Source: Candidatus Nitrosocosmicus sp.
Lineage (GTDB): Archaea; Thermoproteota; Nitrososphaeria; Nitrososphaerales; Nitrososphaeraceae
NCBI GenBank assembly: GCA_025934495.1
Contig: JAICXY010000008.1
Coordinates: 1 to 60,954 of the forward strand
Length of the DNA stretch: 60,954 bases
Direction of reading: 5' to 3'
Shown: piece after piece, positions 28,980 to 33,868 of the stretch
Position numbering within the stretch: the stretch's first letter is position 1
How the letters are laid out: each line of letters begins with the position of its first letter
Translations under genes and position numbers: made by a program
The notes under the pieces: model-generated
Seen by the model: the letters and a program-made list of their open reading frames with translations, nothing else
The model's database searches: none
Told to the model about the DNA's origin: nothing

Positions 28980-29221
28980 ATCACTCTAATAAAGAACTGA
29001 AACATTTTAAAAATTCTATTTTCTGTATCCGAGAGATAGTATTAGAAATTATCAACAGTTATTCAGATGGGGTTTTTATTACAGTAATAGATAAATCACC
29101 GGTTAATTTATCAAATTGGATATCCATGCGATTATGTGGACATGTCTTTGCCACTGCTATTTCTGAAAATATCATTAATATGATAAATTCAGGTTCTGTA
29201 AAGTCTCTGTCGGATAAGTAA
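28980..29221 (+). pseudogene. Protein-coding fragment of unknown family, cut at an element end
   Basis: An open frame of about 80 codons without ATG at its head contains SYSDGVFITVIDKSPVNLSN, MRLCGHVFATAISENIINMI and SGSVKSLSDK. It ends where an insertion-element end begins (29222). The composition looks like genuine protein rather than chance. It may be the remains of a gene disrupted by the element. I do not recognize the family. Confidence 0.35.
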
Positions 29222-29252
29222 ATAAATAGAACTGCAAACTTTCGTCGGTAGT
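29222..29252 (+). repeat. Solo end of the SWIM-transposase element
   Basis: ataaatagaactgcaaactt followed by tcgtcggta matches the inner left end of the element at 31063-33833 (ttatttagaactgtaaaaaa then tcgtcgga, 31101-31128). It is in left-end orientation. No matching element body follows directly. Confidence 0.6.
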
Positions 29253-29387
29253 ATTACATTAGTCGAATGTATTAGAAATCTTATATCTTTATTTTATAAA
29301 TAGTATTTACTTCAGACGCACCAAAACTTCATTACTAGGTCTTGTTTATAACCCATTCAAGACCTAGAATTATAATACAAAGCTCTA

Positions 29388-29511
29388 TTAACATTAATAC
29401 ACCTATCCTGAAAGGTTGTCAGATATCTCATAACTATATTAGAGAACACCGCGCCTTGGGTAAGACACCGCGGAGAAGTGTGGTACAGAAATACCGAGAG
29501 AGAATATTTGA
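29388..29511 (+). pseudogene. 3' end of a SWIM-type transposase, decayed
   Basis: The plus strand reads NTPILKGCQISHNYIREHRA then LGKTP. After a frameshift at the CCGCGG it continues EKCGTEIPREN. This is the C-terminus of the transposase intact at 31796-32908 (TPILKGYKIFHNYIREHQAL, KCGIEVQGEN). The open frame running on to 29656 (ending YCEKYINSS) joins this scrap to about 45 codons of unknown origin and is probably not a gene. The orientation is opposite to that of the intact copy. Confidence 0.7.
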
Positions 29512-29768
29512 GAATATTAAAGAAGAATATAAAGAAATAGTAAACGATGGAGAAAATCTTTCTGAAATGATAGGTAAAAAGATTATTAGATATATAGAAA
29601 ATGGTGAATATGATAAGACCTGTAAATATTGTGAAAAATATATCAATAGTTCTTAATACTTTTTACTTTTATACCCCATAAGCGAATAGAACCTTTCTTT
29701 ATAGCTAATTATATTATTTTTGAGGTTTACAACATCTTTATATAGTTTGTTGCTGTTTTAGATGGCAC

Positions 29769-29963
29769 ATGTCAATTAAAAACAAGATCATGAATATGAT
29801 GACAGCTCGTCCTAAACTTGTAACATTGGGAATAGGTTTGACTATGACTTTTGGGTTAGGTATTATATCAGGAATTTTGGAAGCTCAACAAGCACATGCT
29901 GTGATAGGCATATATGCAGGATCTGTTACTCATGATGTATTCGCTCGCTCAGGTAGCCCCTGA
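29769..29963 (+). CDS. Small secreted protein, truncated by transposase debris
   Basis: The N-terminus MSIKNKIMNMMTARPKLVTL leads into a hydrophobic segment (GIGLTMTFGLGIISGILEA) and an AHA-type cleavage site at about residue 43, a good signal peptide. After VIGIYAGSVTHDVFARS the frame ends just as a transposase remnant begins (about 29960). The mature domain may therefore be cut short. A TATA-like tract (ctttatatagt, 29733-29743) lies about 27 bases upstream, so the gene could still be expressed. Confidence 0.5.
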   Translation: MSIKNKIMNMMTARPKLVTLGIGLTMTFGLGIISGILEAQQAHAVIGIYAGSVTHDVFARSGSP

Positions 29964-30080
29964 TGTATATTAGAGAGCACCAAGCCCTAGGGAAGACTCC
30001 AGCAGAAGTTTCAGGTATAACAATTCAAGGAGAGAATAAGTAGTTAACGATAATACAGAATGCTAGTAAGAATGACTGAA
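29960..30080 (+). pseudogene. Second 3'-end remnant of a SWIM-type transposase
   Basis: The plus strand reads MYIREHQALGKTPAEVSGIT, then IQGENK, a stop, LTIIQNASKN. It matches the last 40 residues of the intact transposase (NYIREHQALGKTPVEKCGIE ... WLTIIQNASKDGKI). In place of Trp (TGG) there is a TAG stop. It lies 450 bases from a like scrap at 29388, in the same orientation. Confidence 0.75.
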
Positions 30081-30117
30081 ATTAATAAAAATTACAATGA
30101 TAATTCAAAAGATATAA

Positions 30118-30895
30118 CTATCCTATTTGACCAACTGACAATAATTTTTTAGTTATTTCTCTTATATTAGGTATATTACTATCAAGTAAATTGTATAGTC
30201 TATCAATCATTACGTTATAACAAGATGATTTTTCTTTTTTTTCAATTTTTCTATAACTATTTTCATCAATTACTGAAATCTGAGTAGATTTCCCACATTC
30301 TGGGTCAATCTTTTTTACTTCCTTAATTATGTATAATGCAATACTTATAACAACATCCAATTCTAAATTAGAAATTTTTTCATCCAATGCTGAAAGTAAT
30401 CTATTTAATTGATTGAAAACAAGATATGCATATTTGGACCCCGAGCCTATTGCTTTATACTCTTTTGTTATAATGGTTATCTCAGAAGTCCTAACTTGTT
30501 CTTTTCCACTTATACCAAATCCTGCCTCATAAAAACAAAAATTTTCCTTTGATTTTGCCCCTATCAATACACCAGGACTAAAACGTATTGCTGGAGATAA
30601 ATATCCTTCTTCTATTACATGGTGAACATTTTCTTGTTTATGTATTTCTCCAAGGGATTTACGAATAGAATTCTTTAAAATTTTCGCTGAATCCAATTTA
30701 TATGTTCTTGATTTTCTTTTTAGTTCTTTTGCAAGCAGTTCAACGTGAATATAATCGTCTGCACCGCCTAGTCCAATAAAATCATGAATTTTATATACTT
30801 TTTTTAACTGATACTTTATATCCATTTCCAGTACCTTGACTATCCGAAGCTATTACAATACCGTCTTTAGATTTTATTGCGATTACAATAGTCAT
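30118..30895 (-). pseudogene. Proteasome beta-subunit-like Ntn hydrolase, frameshifted
   Basis: From an ATG at 30895 the minus strand reads MTIVIAIKSKDGIVIASDSQ, the N-terminal strand of proteasome beta/HslV-like proteases. Thr2 is exposed as nucleophile once Met is removed, and the Asp of the ASDSQ segment is present. A one-base frameshift near 30815-30825 moves the frame into the 235-codon ORF starting at 30825. That ORF continues KKVYKIHDFIGLGGADDYIH and, later, EYKAIGSGSKYAYLVFNQLN (the GSGS..A motif). Total about 260 residues. Either a fresh pseudogene or a sequencing error; everything but the frameshift looks intact. It is an unusual extra to the housekeeping proteasome. Confidence 0.7.
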
Positions 30896-31002
30896 AGATT
30901 TCAATGTTTGACATGAGTCTGGTTCTATATGTTTTGATTTTAAGGTCAAAGCTTTATAATATCTGAACTGAATCAGATATAACCAATTATAGTATTTTTC
31001 AT

Positions 31003-31062
31003 ATCCGACGAAAGTTTACACTATTCTAATAGATGGGCATCCGACGACAACTTTACAGAGCC
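31003..31062 (+). repeat. Solo right end of a second copy of the element, abutting the intact copy
   Basis: Contains an inner repeat (atccgacgaaagtttacac, 31003-31021) and an outer repeat (catccgacgacaactttaca, 31038-31057, then gagcc). Both are in the orientation of the right end of the element at 33763-33833. It joins directly to the left end of the intact element at 31063, making a right-end/left-end junction. The body of this second copy is missing. Confidence 0.65.
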
Positions 31063-31133
31063 TTATTTATGGTACTGTCAAGTTGTCGTCGGATATAGGT
31101 TTATTTAGAACTGTAAAAAATCGTCGGACGGAT
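31063..31133 (+). repeat. Left terminal repeats of the element (outer and inner)
   Basis: Outer repeat 31063-31095 (starts TTATTTATGGTACTGTCAAG, ends GTCGTCGGATA) and inner repeat 31101-31133 (starts TTATTTAGAACTGTAAAAAA, ends TCGTCGGACGGAT). They are spaced about 38 bases, so they look like tandem transposase-binding sites. Confidence 0.7.
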
Positions 31134-31193
31134 ATATTTGAATTACTATAAGATAGAAGAAAACTTATTTTACGTATATAATAAGACTATCAA

Positions 31194-31631
31194 ATGTCTA
31201 ATTTTTCCACTACGAATGAATTTCTAATATGGTTCAAAGAAAATTATCCAAGAGACCATCAATTATTAGATGATATATTAGAAAGAGTGGGCAACATTTT
31301 AAAACATATTAAAATACGTGATGGTGAAATTATTGAACAACCTATTAGAATAGTAGTAGGCAATTCTCCTTCTGACCCAACACAACTAACAATAGGTATG
31401 GATACTTATGGTACAATGTTTATAGGAATAATGGCGAAGGTAATTCTTGATTCATTATCTTCAGAATTTGAAGGTCTTTTAGACGGAGAAATAGGAAATA
31501 GAGTTATAGAGAAAAAAGTGAAAGAAATTTTATCTAAAAATGATTTATTGAATCAAAAAATATGTTCGGGGTGTAATACAAAGAATAGCTCGACTGCTAA
31601 ATATTGTAATGGTTGTGGAAATTTATTATAG
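31194..31631 (+). CDS. Hypothetical protein with C-terminal zinc ribbon (element passenger)
   Basis: One hundred and forty-five residues. The N-terminal 110 residues are an unrecognized mixed fold (FLIWFKENYPRDHQLLDDIL, LTIGMDTYGTMFIGIMAKVI). The last 25 form a two-CxxC zinc ribbon (KICSGCNTKNSSTAKYCNGC). It sits between the left end of the element and the transposase, so it travels with it. A tract gtatataataag (31173-31184) is a TATA-like promoter about 20 bases before the ATG. Function unknown. Confidence 0.65.
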   Translation: MSNFSTTNEFLIWFKENYPRDHQLLDDILERVGNILKHIKIRDGEIIEQPIRIVVGNSPSDPTQLTIGMDTYGTMFIGIMAKVILDSLSSEFEGLLDGEIGNRVIEKKVKEILSKNDLLNQKICSGCNTKNSSTAKYCNGCGNLL

Positions 31632-31662
31632 TTACTTATAAATAAATTTTTATATTATACTA

Positions 31663-31791
31663 ATGATGTATCTTAAGTTACTCTATAAACAAGAATATGA
31701 TTTAGATGGCAAACGATGTCATATATGTGGAACAAAGCCATGGAAATCTACTGCAAGATATTGTGAACAATGTGGTTATAGATTAAAATGA
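31663..31791 (+). CDS. Forty-two-residue zinc-ribbon protein
   Basis: ATG at 31663 encodes MMYLKLLYKQEYDLDGKRCH, then ICGTKPWKSTARYCEQCGYR and LK. It has a CxxC...CxxC zinc ribbon very like the C-terminal domain of the 145-residue protein just upstream (STAKYCNGCG versus STARYCEQCG). It may be a stand-alone copy of that domain, split off or duplicated. It ends five bases from the convergent transposase stop. Below usual ORF size cut-offs. Confidence 0.55.
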   Translation: MMYLKLLYKQEYDLDGKRCHICGTKPWKSTARYCEQCGYRLK

Positions 31792-31795
31792 CTAT

Positions 31796-32908
31796 TTAGA
31801 TTTTTCCATCTTTGCTAGCATTCTGTATAATCGTCAACCATTTATTCTCACCCTGTACTTCTATCCCACACTTCTCCACTGGAGTTTTACCTAACGCTTG
31901 ATGTTCTCTTATGTAGTTATGAAATATTTTATAGCCTTTCAAGATAGGTGTATCCACTTTCTTTAAACCCCTCATAGTCTTCTCTCTGTCCCGGATTTCA
32001 CCGTTCATCCTTTCCATTTTGTTATTGTTATGGTCGCCTTGTAGCCTGATATGGTTGATGTGTCTACTTCGTGGCCACTTGTTAGTATATAACTCTCGGT
32101 TAAATGCTGTATGGAAATTGGGTGCGCCATCGCTTATGAGAGTATTCGGTCTAGTTCCAGCCACTTCCTTACCTTTACTAAAAAGTGGTGTAATATCAGC
32201 AGTGTTCTTGGTATCGGCTACCTGCTGTGCAATCCAGAAACGAGTTTCATCATCCATTAGGGCATACAAGTATTTCGTATTACCCTTGACCTTTAAATAC
32301 AACTCATCAGTTCTCCATGAAGTAGAAATCTTGGGAGTAATCTTGTCAAGGTATCGTTCCATTAATGATGTATACTTATCAATCCAATTATAGATTGTTT
32401 GATGACTTACATCCATTCCTATCAACTTGAGAGAATGAGCAACGTTCCTGAGAGACTCACCACTGAAATAAAGCTGCATTGCTGTTGTCACGCCTTGTGG
32501 GTTGTGCTTCATCTTCTCAAATCCAATGTTTATGGTAAAGTATCGTTTACAATCCCTACACTCAAACTTTTGGATATCTCCATGCTTATTTCGTCTCAAG
32601 CCATCCTTGACAAGGTTGTCTGACTTACAATATTTACAACCATTAATTGATACTTGTTCTATCTTCCTTACTTCAACAGTCTTACGTAATTCAAGGCTAA
32701 ACTCAACAGCATAGATATGTTTACACTTTACACCTCTAAACATGTGGTCGGCACATGAGCAAACCCAACCAATAGAGGTTATGAGTATTCGATAAACTTC
32801 ATCATGAGTAAGAGATTTGACTTGGTAATTTCTTTCATTTAATCTCTTTACATTGGCTTGTAAAAGTCTTCCTGACTCTTCTCTGTTTACTGATTGGTAT
32901 TTACTCAT
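31796..32908 (-). CDS. IS6/IS240-group transposase with N-terminal SWIM zinc finger
   Basis: Three-hundred-and-seventy-residue DDE transposase, intact. A SWIM-type CxC...CxH finger (C50, C52, C62, H64) is followed by a zinc ribbon (C91, C94, C117, C120). A helix-turn-helix-like segment follows (ESLRNVAHSLKLIGMDVSHQ). The DDE core has D201 (WRTDELYLKV), D260 (LISDGAPNF) and E299 (NNKMERMNGEIRDREK). It catalyses movement of the surrounding element. A SWIM finger fused ahead of an IS240-like core is unusual. The gene diverges from the AbrB-like gene across a repeat-rich 85-base gap. Confidence 0.9.
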   Translation of the reverse strand: MSKYQSVNREESGRLLQANVKRLNERNYQVKSLTHDEVYRILITSIGWVCSCADHMFRGVKCKHIYAVEFSLELRKTVEVRKIEQVSINGCKYCKSDNLVKDGLRRNKHGDIQKFECRDCKRYFTINIGFEKMKHNPQGVTTAMQLYFSGESLRNVAHSLKLIGMDVSHQTIYNWIDKYTSLMERYLDKITPKISTSWRTDELYLKVKGNTKYLYALMDDETRFWIAQQVADTKNTADITPLFSKGKEVAGTRPNTLISDGAPNFHTAFNRELYTNKWPRSRHINHIRLQGDHNNNKMERMNGEIRDREKTMRGLKKVDTPILKGYKIFHNYIREHQALGKTPVEKCGIEVQGENKWLTIIQNASKDGKI

Positions 32909-32909
32909 G

Positions 32910-32962
32910 ATACCTATATTGATACCTACGAATATAAATGTATAGGTATTGGTTTAGGTATC
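32910..32962. promoter_or_regulatory. Four-half-site operator between transposase and AbrB-like gene
   Basis: ATACCTA occurs at 32910 and 32922 and its complement TAGGTAT-type at 32942 (ATAGGTAT) and 32955 (TAGGTATC). The spacing is 12-13 bases, symmetric about the centre of the divergent intergenic region. The sites overlap the likely promoter of the transposase and lie just ahead of a TATA box (ccttatatac, 32962-32971) of the AbrB-like gene. This layout fits autoregulation and transposase repression. Confidence 0.55.
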
Positions 32963-32993
32963 CTTATATACTAAATTTTGATTAATAATAATA

Positions 32994-33176
32994 GTGAGTA
33001 GTCATCAAGGCGACATTACATTTATTGCAAAAGCCAATAGTAAAAGTAAATCATTAAGAACTACAATACCAGCCTCGGTAGCTAGGCAATTTGGATTTAA
33101 AGAAGGAGATAGGTTATTATGGAAGATAGAAGCCGAAGACAACACACTGACAATTAAGATAAAGCCTTTAGAATAA
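32994..33176 (+). CDS. AbrB/SpoVT-type DNA-binding protein
   Basis: Sixty residues spanning one swapped-hairpin AbrB domain: SKSLRTTIPASVARQFGFKE, GDRLLWKIEAEDNTLTIKI. Such proteins dimerize and bind palindromic operators, often as antitoxins or repressors of their own locus. Start GTG at 32994 with a TATA box about 24 bases upstream. Its location opposite the transposase and beside four operator half-sites suggests it controls the element. No toxin of a known family is adjacent. Confidence 0.85.
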   Translation: MSSHQGDITFIAKANSKSKSLRTTIPASVARQFGFKEGDRLLWKIEAEDNTLTIKIKPLE

Positions 33177-33216
33177 GATTTATTAATATATAAACGTAAC
33201 AAATATTACGAAAAAT

Positions 33217-33414
33217 ATGTCATTATCATTAGCACCAAGAAATAAAATAATAAAATTCAAAACCAGAGAAGATGAAGTAAATGGCTTTTATGAGATGTTA
33301 GTTGCTAAAACTCCTATAAGAGGTGCAGGAGAACATAAGTTCATTATTGATGATGAACAATGTAAACTGCTTCAATCAAAAAACATAAATTATAATGTAA
33401 TGTCAGAAATTTAA
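33217..33414 (+). CDS. Small passenger protein of unknown function, 65 residues
   Basis: An intact frame, ATG start, 40 bases behind the AbrB-like gene: IIKFKTREDEVNGFYEMLVA then KTPIRGAGEHKFIIDDEQCK. Single domain, no membrane segment, not recognized. Separated from the next gene by only five bases, so the three are likely one transcript. Confidence 0.6.
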   Translation: MSLSLAPRNKIIKFKTREDEVNGFYEMLVAKTPIRGAGEHKFIIDDEQCKLLQSKNINYNVMSEI

Positions 33415-33419
33415 TTTTA

Positions 33420-33746
33420 TTGCCAACATCCATAAGATGTGATATCTATATACCATTGCAATATAATGACAAAAGAGATATAGAGAAAGAAAAATTTATT
33501 CTTGTTTATGAGGAGTTAAGTAATCATTTTGGTGGGTGTTCAGTTGATGAAAACAGTCTTATAAATGGCAGATGGATTAACCCCGAAACAAACGAAGCAA
33601 TGGATGATAAATTACGACCATATCAAATAATATGTGAAAAAAATTTAGGTAATGTCCAACTCCTTGCAAATTATAAAGAAAAATTAAAAGACATGTTTGA
33701 ACAATTTGATATATTTATGTATTATATACATGTTCATCGTTTTTAA
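33420..33746 (+). CDS. Passenger protein of unknown function, 108 residues
   Basis: Starts with TTG (MPTSIRCDIYIPLQYNDKRD). A central FILVYEELSNHFGGCSVDEN, then GRWINPETNEAMDDKLRPYQ, and the end LKDMFEQFDIFMYYIHVHRF give an alpha/beta, ferredoxin-like impression. Bacterial proteins with a similar 'FGG...G.W.dp' pattern occur near mobile elements, as I recall it, but I cannot name the family or assign activity. It is the last gene before the right end of the element. Confidence 0.6.
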   Translation: MPTSIRCDIYIPLQYNDKRDIEKEKFILVYEELSNHFGGCSVDENSLINGRWINPETNEAMDDKLRPYQIICEKNLGNVQLLANYKEKLKDMFEQFDIFMYYIHVHRF

Positions 33747-33762
33747 ATAATTTCTAATCATT

Positions 33763-33833
33763 TCCATCCGACGAATTTTTACAACTTTAATTTAGGTCTT
33801 TGTCCGACGGAGACTTGACAGAACCATAAATAA
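33763..33833 (-). repeat. Right terminal repeats of the element (inner and outer)
   Basis: Inner repeat catccgacgaatttttacaa (33764-33783) and outer repeat tgtccgacggagacttgaca (33801-33820) then gaaccataaataa to 33833. They mirror the left end. The outer repeat ends one base before the TATA region of sufB. Confidence 0.7.
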
Positions 33834-33846
33834 AAATATTTATAAT
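33834..33846 (+). promoter_or_regulatory. sufB TATA box at the edge of the element
   Basis: aaatatttataat lies 23-35 bases before the ATG at 33869, the right distance for a leaderless transcript starting there. It begins exactly where the terminal repeat ends, so upstream promoter sequence (BRE, operators) is now element-derived. Confidence 0.45.
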
Positions 33847-33868
33847 GTATAACAGCGTTATGGAAGTT

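Follow-up and report, generated by a model that had tools for sequence, protein, structure and literature searches.

In a contig of Candidatus Nitrosocosmicus sp. we analysed a stretch of 60,954 nucleotides (the window), and within it a 2755-bp unit, element A, that we consider to be quite probably a unit transposon with cargo genes, an IS6-related SWIM-finger transposase and an exchangeable repressor-operator cassette. This reading is built on features seen directly in the sequences, namely the ends, the 8-bp duplications of the relatives, one uninterrupted target, the universal cargo and a regulator slot with subclass-specific dyads. Among the points against it, the flanks of element A itself are inverted, not direct, and the regulator could be an antitoxin. 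In the proposed mechanism the transposase would read the two-tier ends and move everything between them, the AbrB-like protein would bind four half-sites around a TATA element and, once bound, would repress its own operon as well as the transposase gene, recombination would swap the promoter-regulator segment between elements, and cargo arms would change separately from that segment. The features, in window coordinates, are as follows.

29192–31062, no strand: element B, a decayed neighbour of the same family that abuts element A via an 8-bp spacer (both ends family-like; transposase fragments)
31063–31070, no strand: left 8-bp flank TTATTTAT, which also spaces element A from element B (the right flank is its reverse complement)
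31071–33825, no strand: whole transposon, element A, 2755 bp (inverted repeats aligned with sister elements bearing perfect direct 8-bp duplications)
31071–31094, plus strand: left outer inverted repeat (19/24 match to the right end)
31107–31130, plus strand: left inner end motif, CTGTAAAAAATCGTCGGAC (end-motif comparison)
31194–31631, plus strand: passenger of 145 aa with a C-terminal zinc ribbon (relatives in other genomes of the order)
31663–31791, plus strand: passenger, 42-aa zinc-ribbon protein (weak similarity to the end of the 145-aa protein)
31796–32908, minus strand: transposase of 370 aa with SWIM finger, zinc ribbon and IS240/IS6-like DDE core (profiles, invariant residues)
32909–32993, no strand: divergent promoter and putative operator (four half-sites around a TATA-like sequence)
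32994–33176, plus strand: AbrB/MazE-fold regulator of 60 aa, a putative repressor (profile match; GTG start at 32994)
33217–33414, plus strand: passenger of 65 aa, ferredoxin-like by fold prediction (partner of the 108-aa gene)
33420–33746, plus strand: passenger, 108-aa DUF3574-like protein with a predicted PII/CutA-like fold and a TTG start (profile, structure model)
33766–33786, minus strand: right inner end motif, TTGTAAAAATTCGTCGGAT (end-motif comparison)
33802–33825, minus strand: right outer inverted repeat (end search of element A)
33826–33833, no strand: right 8-bp flank ATAAATAA, directly upstream of sufB

Ends, target duplications and genomic setting

A preliminary description had recognised a 2.77-kb unit at 31063–33833. 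The unit is real, as sister elements with perfect duplications and control scans without comparable pairs attest, but the outermost 8 bp on each side are flank, and the true span is 31071–33825. The outer 24-bp repeats, GGTACTGTCAAGTTGTCGTCGGAT (from 31071) and GGTTCTGTCAAGTCTCCGTCGGAC (to 33825), start with GGTACTGTCAAG at one end and GGTTCTGTCAAG at the other, and the 8-bp flanks outside them stand in inverted orientation. The inner tier of the ends, also part of that description, is present at about +36 on the left and +37 on the right as a shorter motif ending in CGTCGGA(T/C). Over 88 family ends the inner 8-mer agrees with the outer 8-mer of its own element at a mean of 6.6/8 positions, compared to 5.3/8 for the outer 8-mers of other elements, a likeness within the same end that was reached by 0/2000 permutations; two-tier ends are a general trait of the family, beyond element A. 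Ungapped matching of outer to inner motifs had given little signal (7/88 ends at p<=0.02), and it was the 8-mer test that succeeded.

Relatives were delimited by seeking GG...CC ends around each transposase, which yielded 44 usable elements. Most of the delimited ends are GG-tipped inverted repeats with CTGT, and 39 of the 44 elements are bounded by a perfect direct 8-bp target duplication. A perfect duplication together with an end match of at least 15/24 was found at 38/47 loci versus 0/47 in the control scan, for which the right ends were reversed, and the delimited ends and duplications are beyond chance. Palindromic extensions account for the apparent inverted flanks of L067 and L090, which were left out, as was L025, in which the duplication reads 9 bp. 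One sister element of the same genome, C29, is inserted within another repeat, an uninterrupted paralogue of which, situated elsewhere in the genome (L186), aligns without a gap across the join and has a single target copy, with CTGAAGTA for CTGAATTG; a second paralogue (L185) shows a 3-base gap by the join.

The right end of element A lies 20 bp ahead of the called start codon of sufB, by the AT-rich promoter of that gene (33826–33860), and the element may affect sufB expression. On the other side, element B harbours a proteasome-like gene that is broken between 30791–30949 and 30118–30825. Inverted 8-bp flanks were seen in three elements (window 31063–31070/33826–33833; L014:501–508/5365–5372; L029:3798–3805/6841–6848), each of which abuts another family end over an 8-bp spacer. 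Insertion beside a resident end and then inversion of the spacer within the near-palindromic junction could have produced such flanks.

The transposase family and its cargo

The element A transposase scores 65.5 bits (cut-off 27) with the Pfam profile DDE_Tnp_IS240 (PF13610), which also matches 30/30 of its relatives, and across these 30 the triad D201/D260/E299, the zinc-ribbon cysteines C91, C94, C117 and C120 and the SWIM ligands C50, C52, C62 and H64 are invariant. The DDE profile and the invariant ligands thus bear out the earlier proposal that a SWIM finger and a zinc ribbon precede an IS240-like DDE core, except that the SWIM profile itself scores 16, below its cut-off of 19.6. The NCBIfam IS6 equivalog NF033587 also fell below its cut-off (111 versus 125 bits), and a search of solved structures with the transposase profile gave no match. 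Despite the missed NCBI IS6 cut-off, the transposase core and the 8-bp duplications put the family with or beside IS6. A scan across 84,980 species genomes returned 76 transposase loci across archaea. Elements of the family occur in Nitrososphaerota, Bathyarchaeota and Thermoplasmata, transposase relatives are also found in Methanoperedens and Asgard assemblies, and many relatives of the transposase lie within the genome of element A itself. Contigs that IMG/VR classes as viral carry near full-length transposase relatives (L191–L194) and may be a way for the family to pass from one replicon to another.

All 44 delimited elements carry cargo, the content of which varies between them, and they measure 2.36–5.32 kb, where the transposase gene alone needs about 1.1 kb; elements with transposases merely 31–37% identical (e.g. 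L157, L158 and L168) are still cargo-sized. Ends enclosing the transposase alone, which the preliminary description had named as the observation that would speak against it, were looked for and seen in 0/44 delimited relatives, so that this attempt at refutation failed; the count holds for delimited elements, because decayed copies defeat the boundary finder, and 70 transposase places were left undelimited. Profile searches identified a Tsp45I restriction enzyme accompanied by a methylase (L043), type I-like fusions of methylase and specificity parts (L017 and L030), a HaeIII restriction enzyme (L058), GmrSD with HNH (L027) and a methylase with an Mrr-like domain (L044), as well as four proteasome-like proteins and CBS, cyclase and ArsR-like proteins; many of the remaining cargo genes are membrane-protein-like by reading or are without family assignment. 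The proteasome-like (Ntn-hydrolase) genes recur in otherwise unlike elements (L028:3721–4530, L030:6263–6982, L060:3788–4717, L078:3811–4737 and window 30118–30949). With non-transposition genes inside the ends and no transposase-only copy among the 44 delimited relatives, the suggestion of a cargo-bearing archaeal element is supported. That the same five passengers always sit inside the ends did not hold, since the cargo differs and the 65+108 and 145-aa genes recur elsewhere.

In element A all five small open reading frames described around the transposase are present (the AbrB-like one from the GTG at 32994), and the gene order from left to right is 145 (+), 42 (+), transposase (-), AbrB-like (+), 65 (+), 108 (+). 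Relatives of the 145-aa protein were found in nine other genomes of the order, seven of them in the same genus. The 65- and 108-aa genes are neighbours, as a conserved pair, in about a dozen other genomes, mostly not accompanied by the AbrB gene of element A, and at L125 the pair comes after a different (winged-helix-like) regulator beside a family-type end; the two genes are a separate, independent mobile pair. Structure prediction, which had been proposed earlier for both proteins, gave ferredoxin-like folds at good confidence (pLDDT 85 and 91, respectively). A fold search with the 65-aa model found no match at E<=0.001, and the best match of the 108-aa model was the phage SAM lyase 6zm9 (E 2.7e-4, TM 0.69), followed by CutA/PII proteins; we treat the predicted likeness to the lyase as a shared superfold. 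The passengers, zinc-ribbon genes on one side and 65+108 on the other, are putatively hitchhiking genes.

The regulator slot and its exchange

The AbrB-like protein matches MazE_antitoxin (33.7 bits, cut-off 24.7), and the AbrB profile matches AbrB and MazE structures, pointing to an antitoxin-type DNA-binding fold. Its gene is no ordinary passenger, as had first been supposed, but occupies a slot, divergent from and shortly upstream of the transposase gene, that holds a recognisable DNA-binding-type gene in 38/44 elements. By class, called from profile hits and sequence reading (the ribbon-helix-helix profile hits being weak, E 0.01–0.03), the slots hold 16 AbrB/MazE-like, 17 ribbon-helix-helix, four zinc-ribbon, one winged-helix-like and two unassigned genes, and four hold none. 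In nine elements (L020, L021, L024, L029, L051, L053, L082, L109 and L112) the regulator and the following gene share a few bases, and the latter has, by reading, a coiled-coil-like stretch at its end; it is possibly a second core component.

The divergent promoter of element A has half-sites at 32910 and 32922 (ATACCTA) and at 32943 and 32955 (TAGGTAT), two pairs with 12-bp spacing within the pair that are symmetric about the TATA-like ATATAAAT at 32932, and these four sites compare with 0.026 expected from the half-site frequency in the window. Dyads were detected in 20/39 divergent promoters at p<=0.05, the other 19 having no significant dyad by the same measure, and AT-rich promoters can yield palindromes by chance. 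The half-site TAGGNNCCTA / TTAGGNNCCTAA is present in 4/4 elements with a 'KLQKR' AbrB versus 0/35 others (p=1e-5), TACCTW is enriched in the 'SLR' AbrB subclass to which element A belongs (p=1e-4), and CGTACGG occurs in 2/2 'WKK' elements and in no other element; the p-values are optimistic, because the patterns were picked after viewing the same promoters. Sister elements of the same regulator subclass as element A have the same half-site, and in the C114 promoter TACCTA half-sites lie in a long palindrome (by inspection) around an AT-rich centre. In our interpretation the slot is an exchangeable repressor-operator cassette that would control transposition, and the AbrB-like protein is probably the off-switch of the transposase.

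On the transposase tree the regulator class is distributed near randomly (17 changes versus 14.7 when shuffled for four groups; 16 versus 17.8 for eight subclasses). The over-dispersion apparent with four groups is gone with eight subclasses, and near-randomness alone is claimed. The nearest transposase pairs (92%, 84% and 83% identity) bear different regulators. Within the genome of element A, homology with C29 covers just the transposase, from one base before the start codon (position 917), and a terminal stretch of 60 bp; with C60 it covers regulator, transposase and both ends; and with C114 it covers the right arm (end-108-65-AbrB) and the transposase. In all three comparisons homology stops at about 2010, near the transposase 3' end, and the breaks between sister elements fall at that 3' end, at the start codon of the transposase and behind the regulator. 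Therefore, the end, the cargo arm, the regulator-operator segment and the transposase each act as a module, and the simplest route for the shuffling of arms would be recombination within the conserved transposase. Tentatively, and with less confidence than we attach to the cassette itself, we suggest that the slot is a heteroimmunity locus, in which a cassette would silence its own transposase and incoming elements of the same type, and its exchange would let elements coexist.

A different reading, which we regard as unlikely, is that the element is retained by a toxin-antitoxin (addiction) module made up of the regulator and the following gene, with the dyads serving autoregulation of the module and transposase control incidental. 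It is kept because the folds (AbrB/MazE and ribbon-helix-helix) are shared with antitoxins and because some partner genes, of 120–220 aa in the nine elements above, overlap the regulator; moreover, Tn3 transposons bear toxin-antitoxin pairs within the transposition module (PMC7157771). However, no PIN, MazF, RelE or other toxin family is found among the 25 commonest of the 48 cargo families, the 65+108 pair behind the AbrB gene in element A, two proteins unassigned to any toxin family, recurs elsewhere without that AbrB, and the slot is followed by the GmrSD gene in L027 or by an oppositely pointing gene (L060, L078), which leaves no obvious toxin partner. The promoter evidence also favours regulation of the transposase first. 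It is more improbable still that all small genes, the regulator included, are not cargo but accessory transposition factors that bind the ends or choose the target: the near-universal regulator slot and the two-tiered ends would fit, yet the end motifs track the outer repeat of the element itself, and the Tsp45I, HaeIII, type I-like methylase and GmrSD cargo have clear other functions. Scarcely credible is a simple IS among five chromosomal neighbours, with outer repeats that arose by chance or belong to neighbouring elements. In favour of this reading, element A lacks directly repeated flanks and lies up against element B; against it, cargo is enclosed by sister elements that have perfect duplications, C114 has the same end-108-65-AbrB-transposase block, and four related genomes have no such insert upstream of sufB but a different, divergent dehydrogenase-like gene.

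Comparison with known systems

The cargo-bearing transposon with its repressor-operator cassette, as we read element A, resembles the IS6/IS26/IS240 group in its IS240-type DDE core, GG-tipped ends with CTGT and 8-bp target duplications, but its family has a longer transposase with an N-terminal SWIM finger and zinc ribbon, two-tier ends, lengths of 2.4–5.3 kb and cargo, unlike the short, transposase-only form expected of an IS6 element. According to a 2021 review of IS6, one member, ISDsp3, carries a passenger, the archaeal members have short transposases, and a zinc-finger extension, without SWIM, is found in clades h and i (PMC7986276). The element A family is a cargo-carrying IS, a kind already known: genes other than those for transposition, such as restriction-modification and proteasome-like genes, lie inside the ends of a single-transposase element, as do the passengers of a tIS (transporter IS), the differences being that cargo is universal in our sample and the regulator slot conserved. 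Tn3-family transposons with toxin-antitoxin pairs likewise have an antitoxin-fold gene beside the transposition genes, of interchangeable types (PMC7157771), but the element A family has no recognised toxin, no resolvase was seen in it and its transposase is unrelated.

The IS-like transposons of thaumarchaea, which share their hosts with the element A family, are described as having one or two genes in a 2019 survey of thaumarchaeal mobile elements, which also counted composite, passenger-carrying transposons with the classes undetected in archaea (PMC6563490). We found no description of the element A family in the open-access literature searched (subscription journals being outside its scope). 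The family provides passenger-gene transposons in archaea, with restriction-modification genes within units of 3–5 kb, and with at least three unrelated regulator folds in one slot it is a small, naturally occurring model in which to study the control of transposition and the means by which elements sharing a genome escape silencing one another. The immunity regions of lambdoid phages are swappable repressor-operator sets. The likeness to them lies in a probable swappable repressor with matching operators on a mobile element, and immunity between elements would, if the heteroimmunity suggestion is right, extend that likeness.
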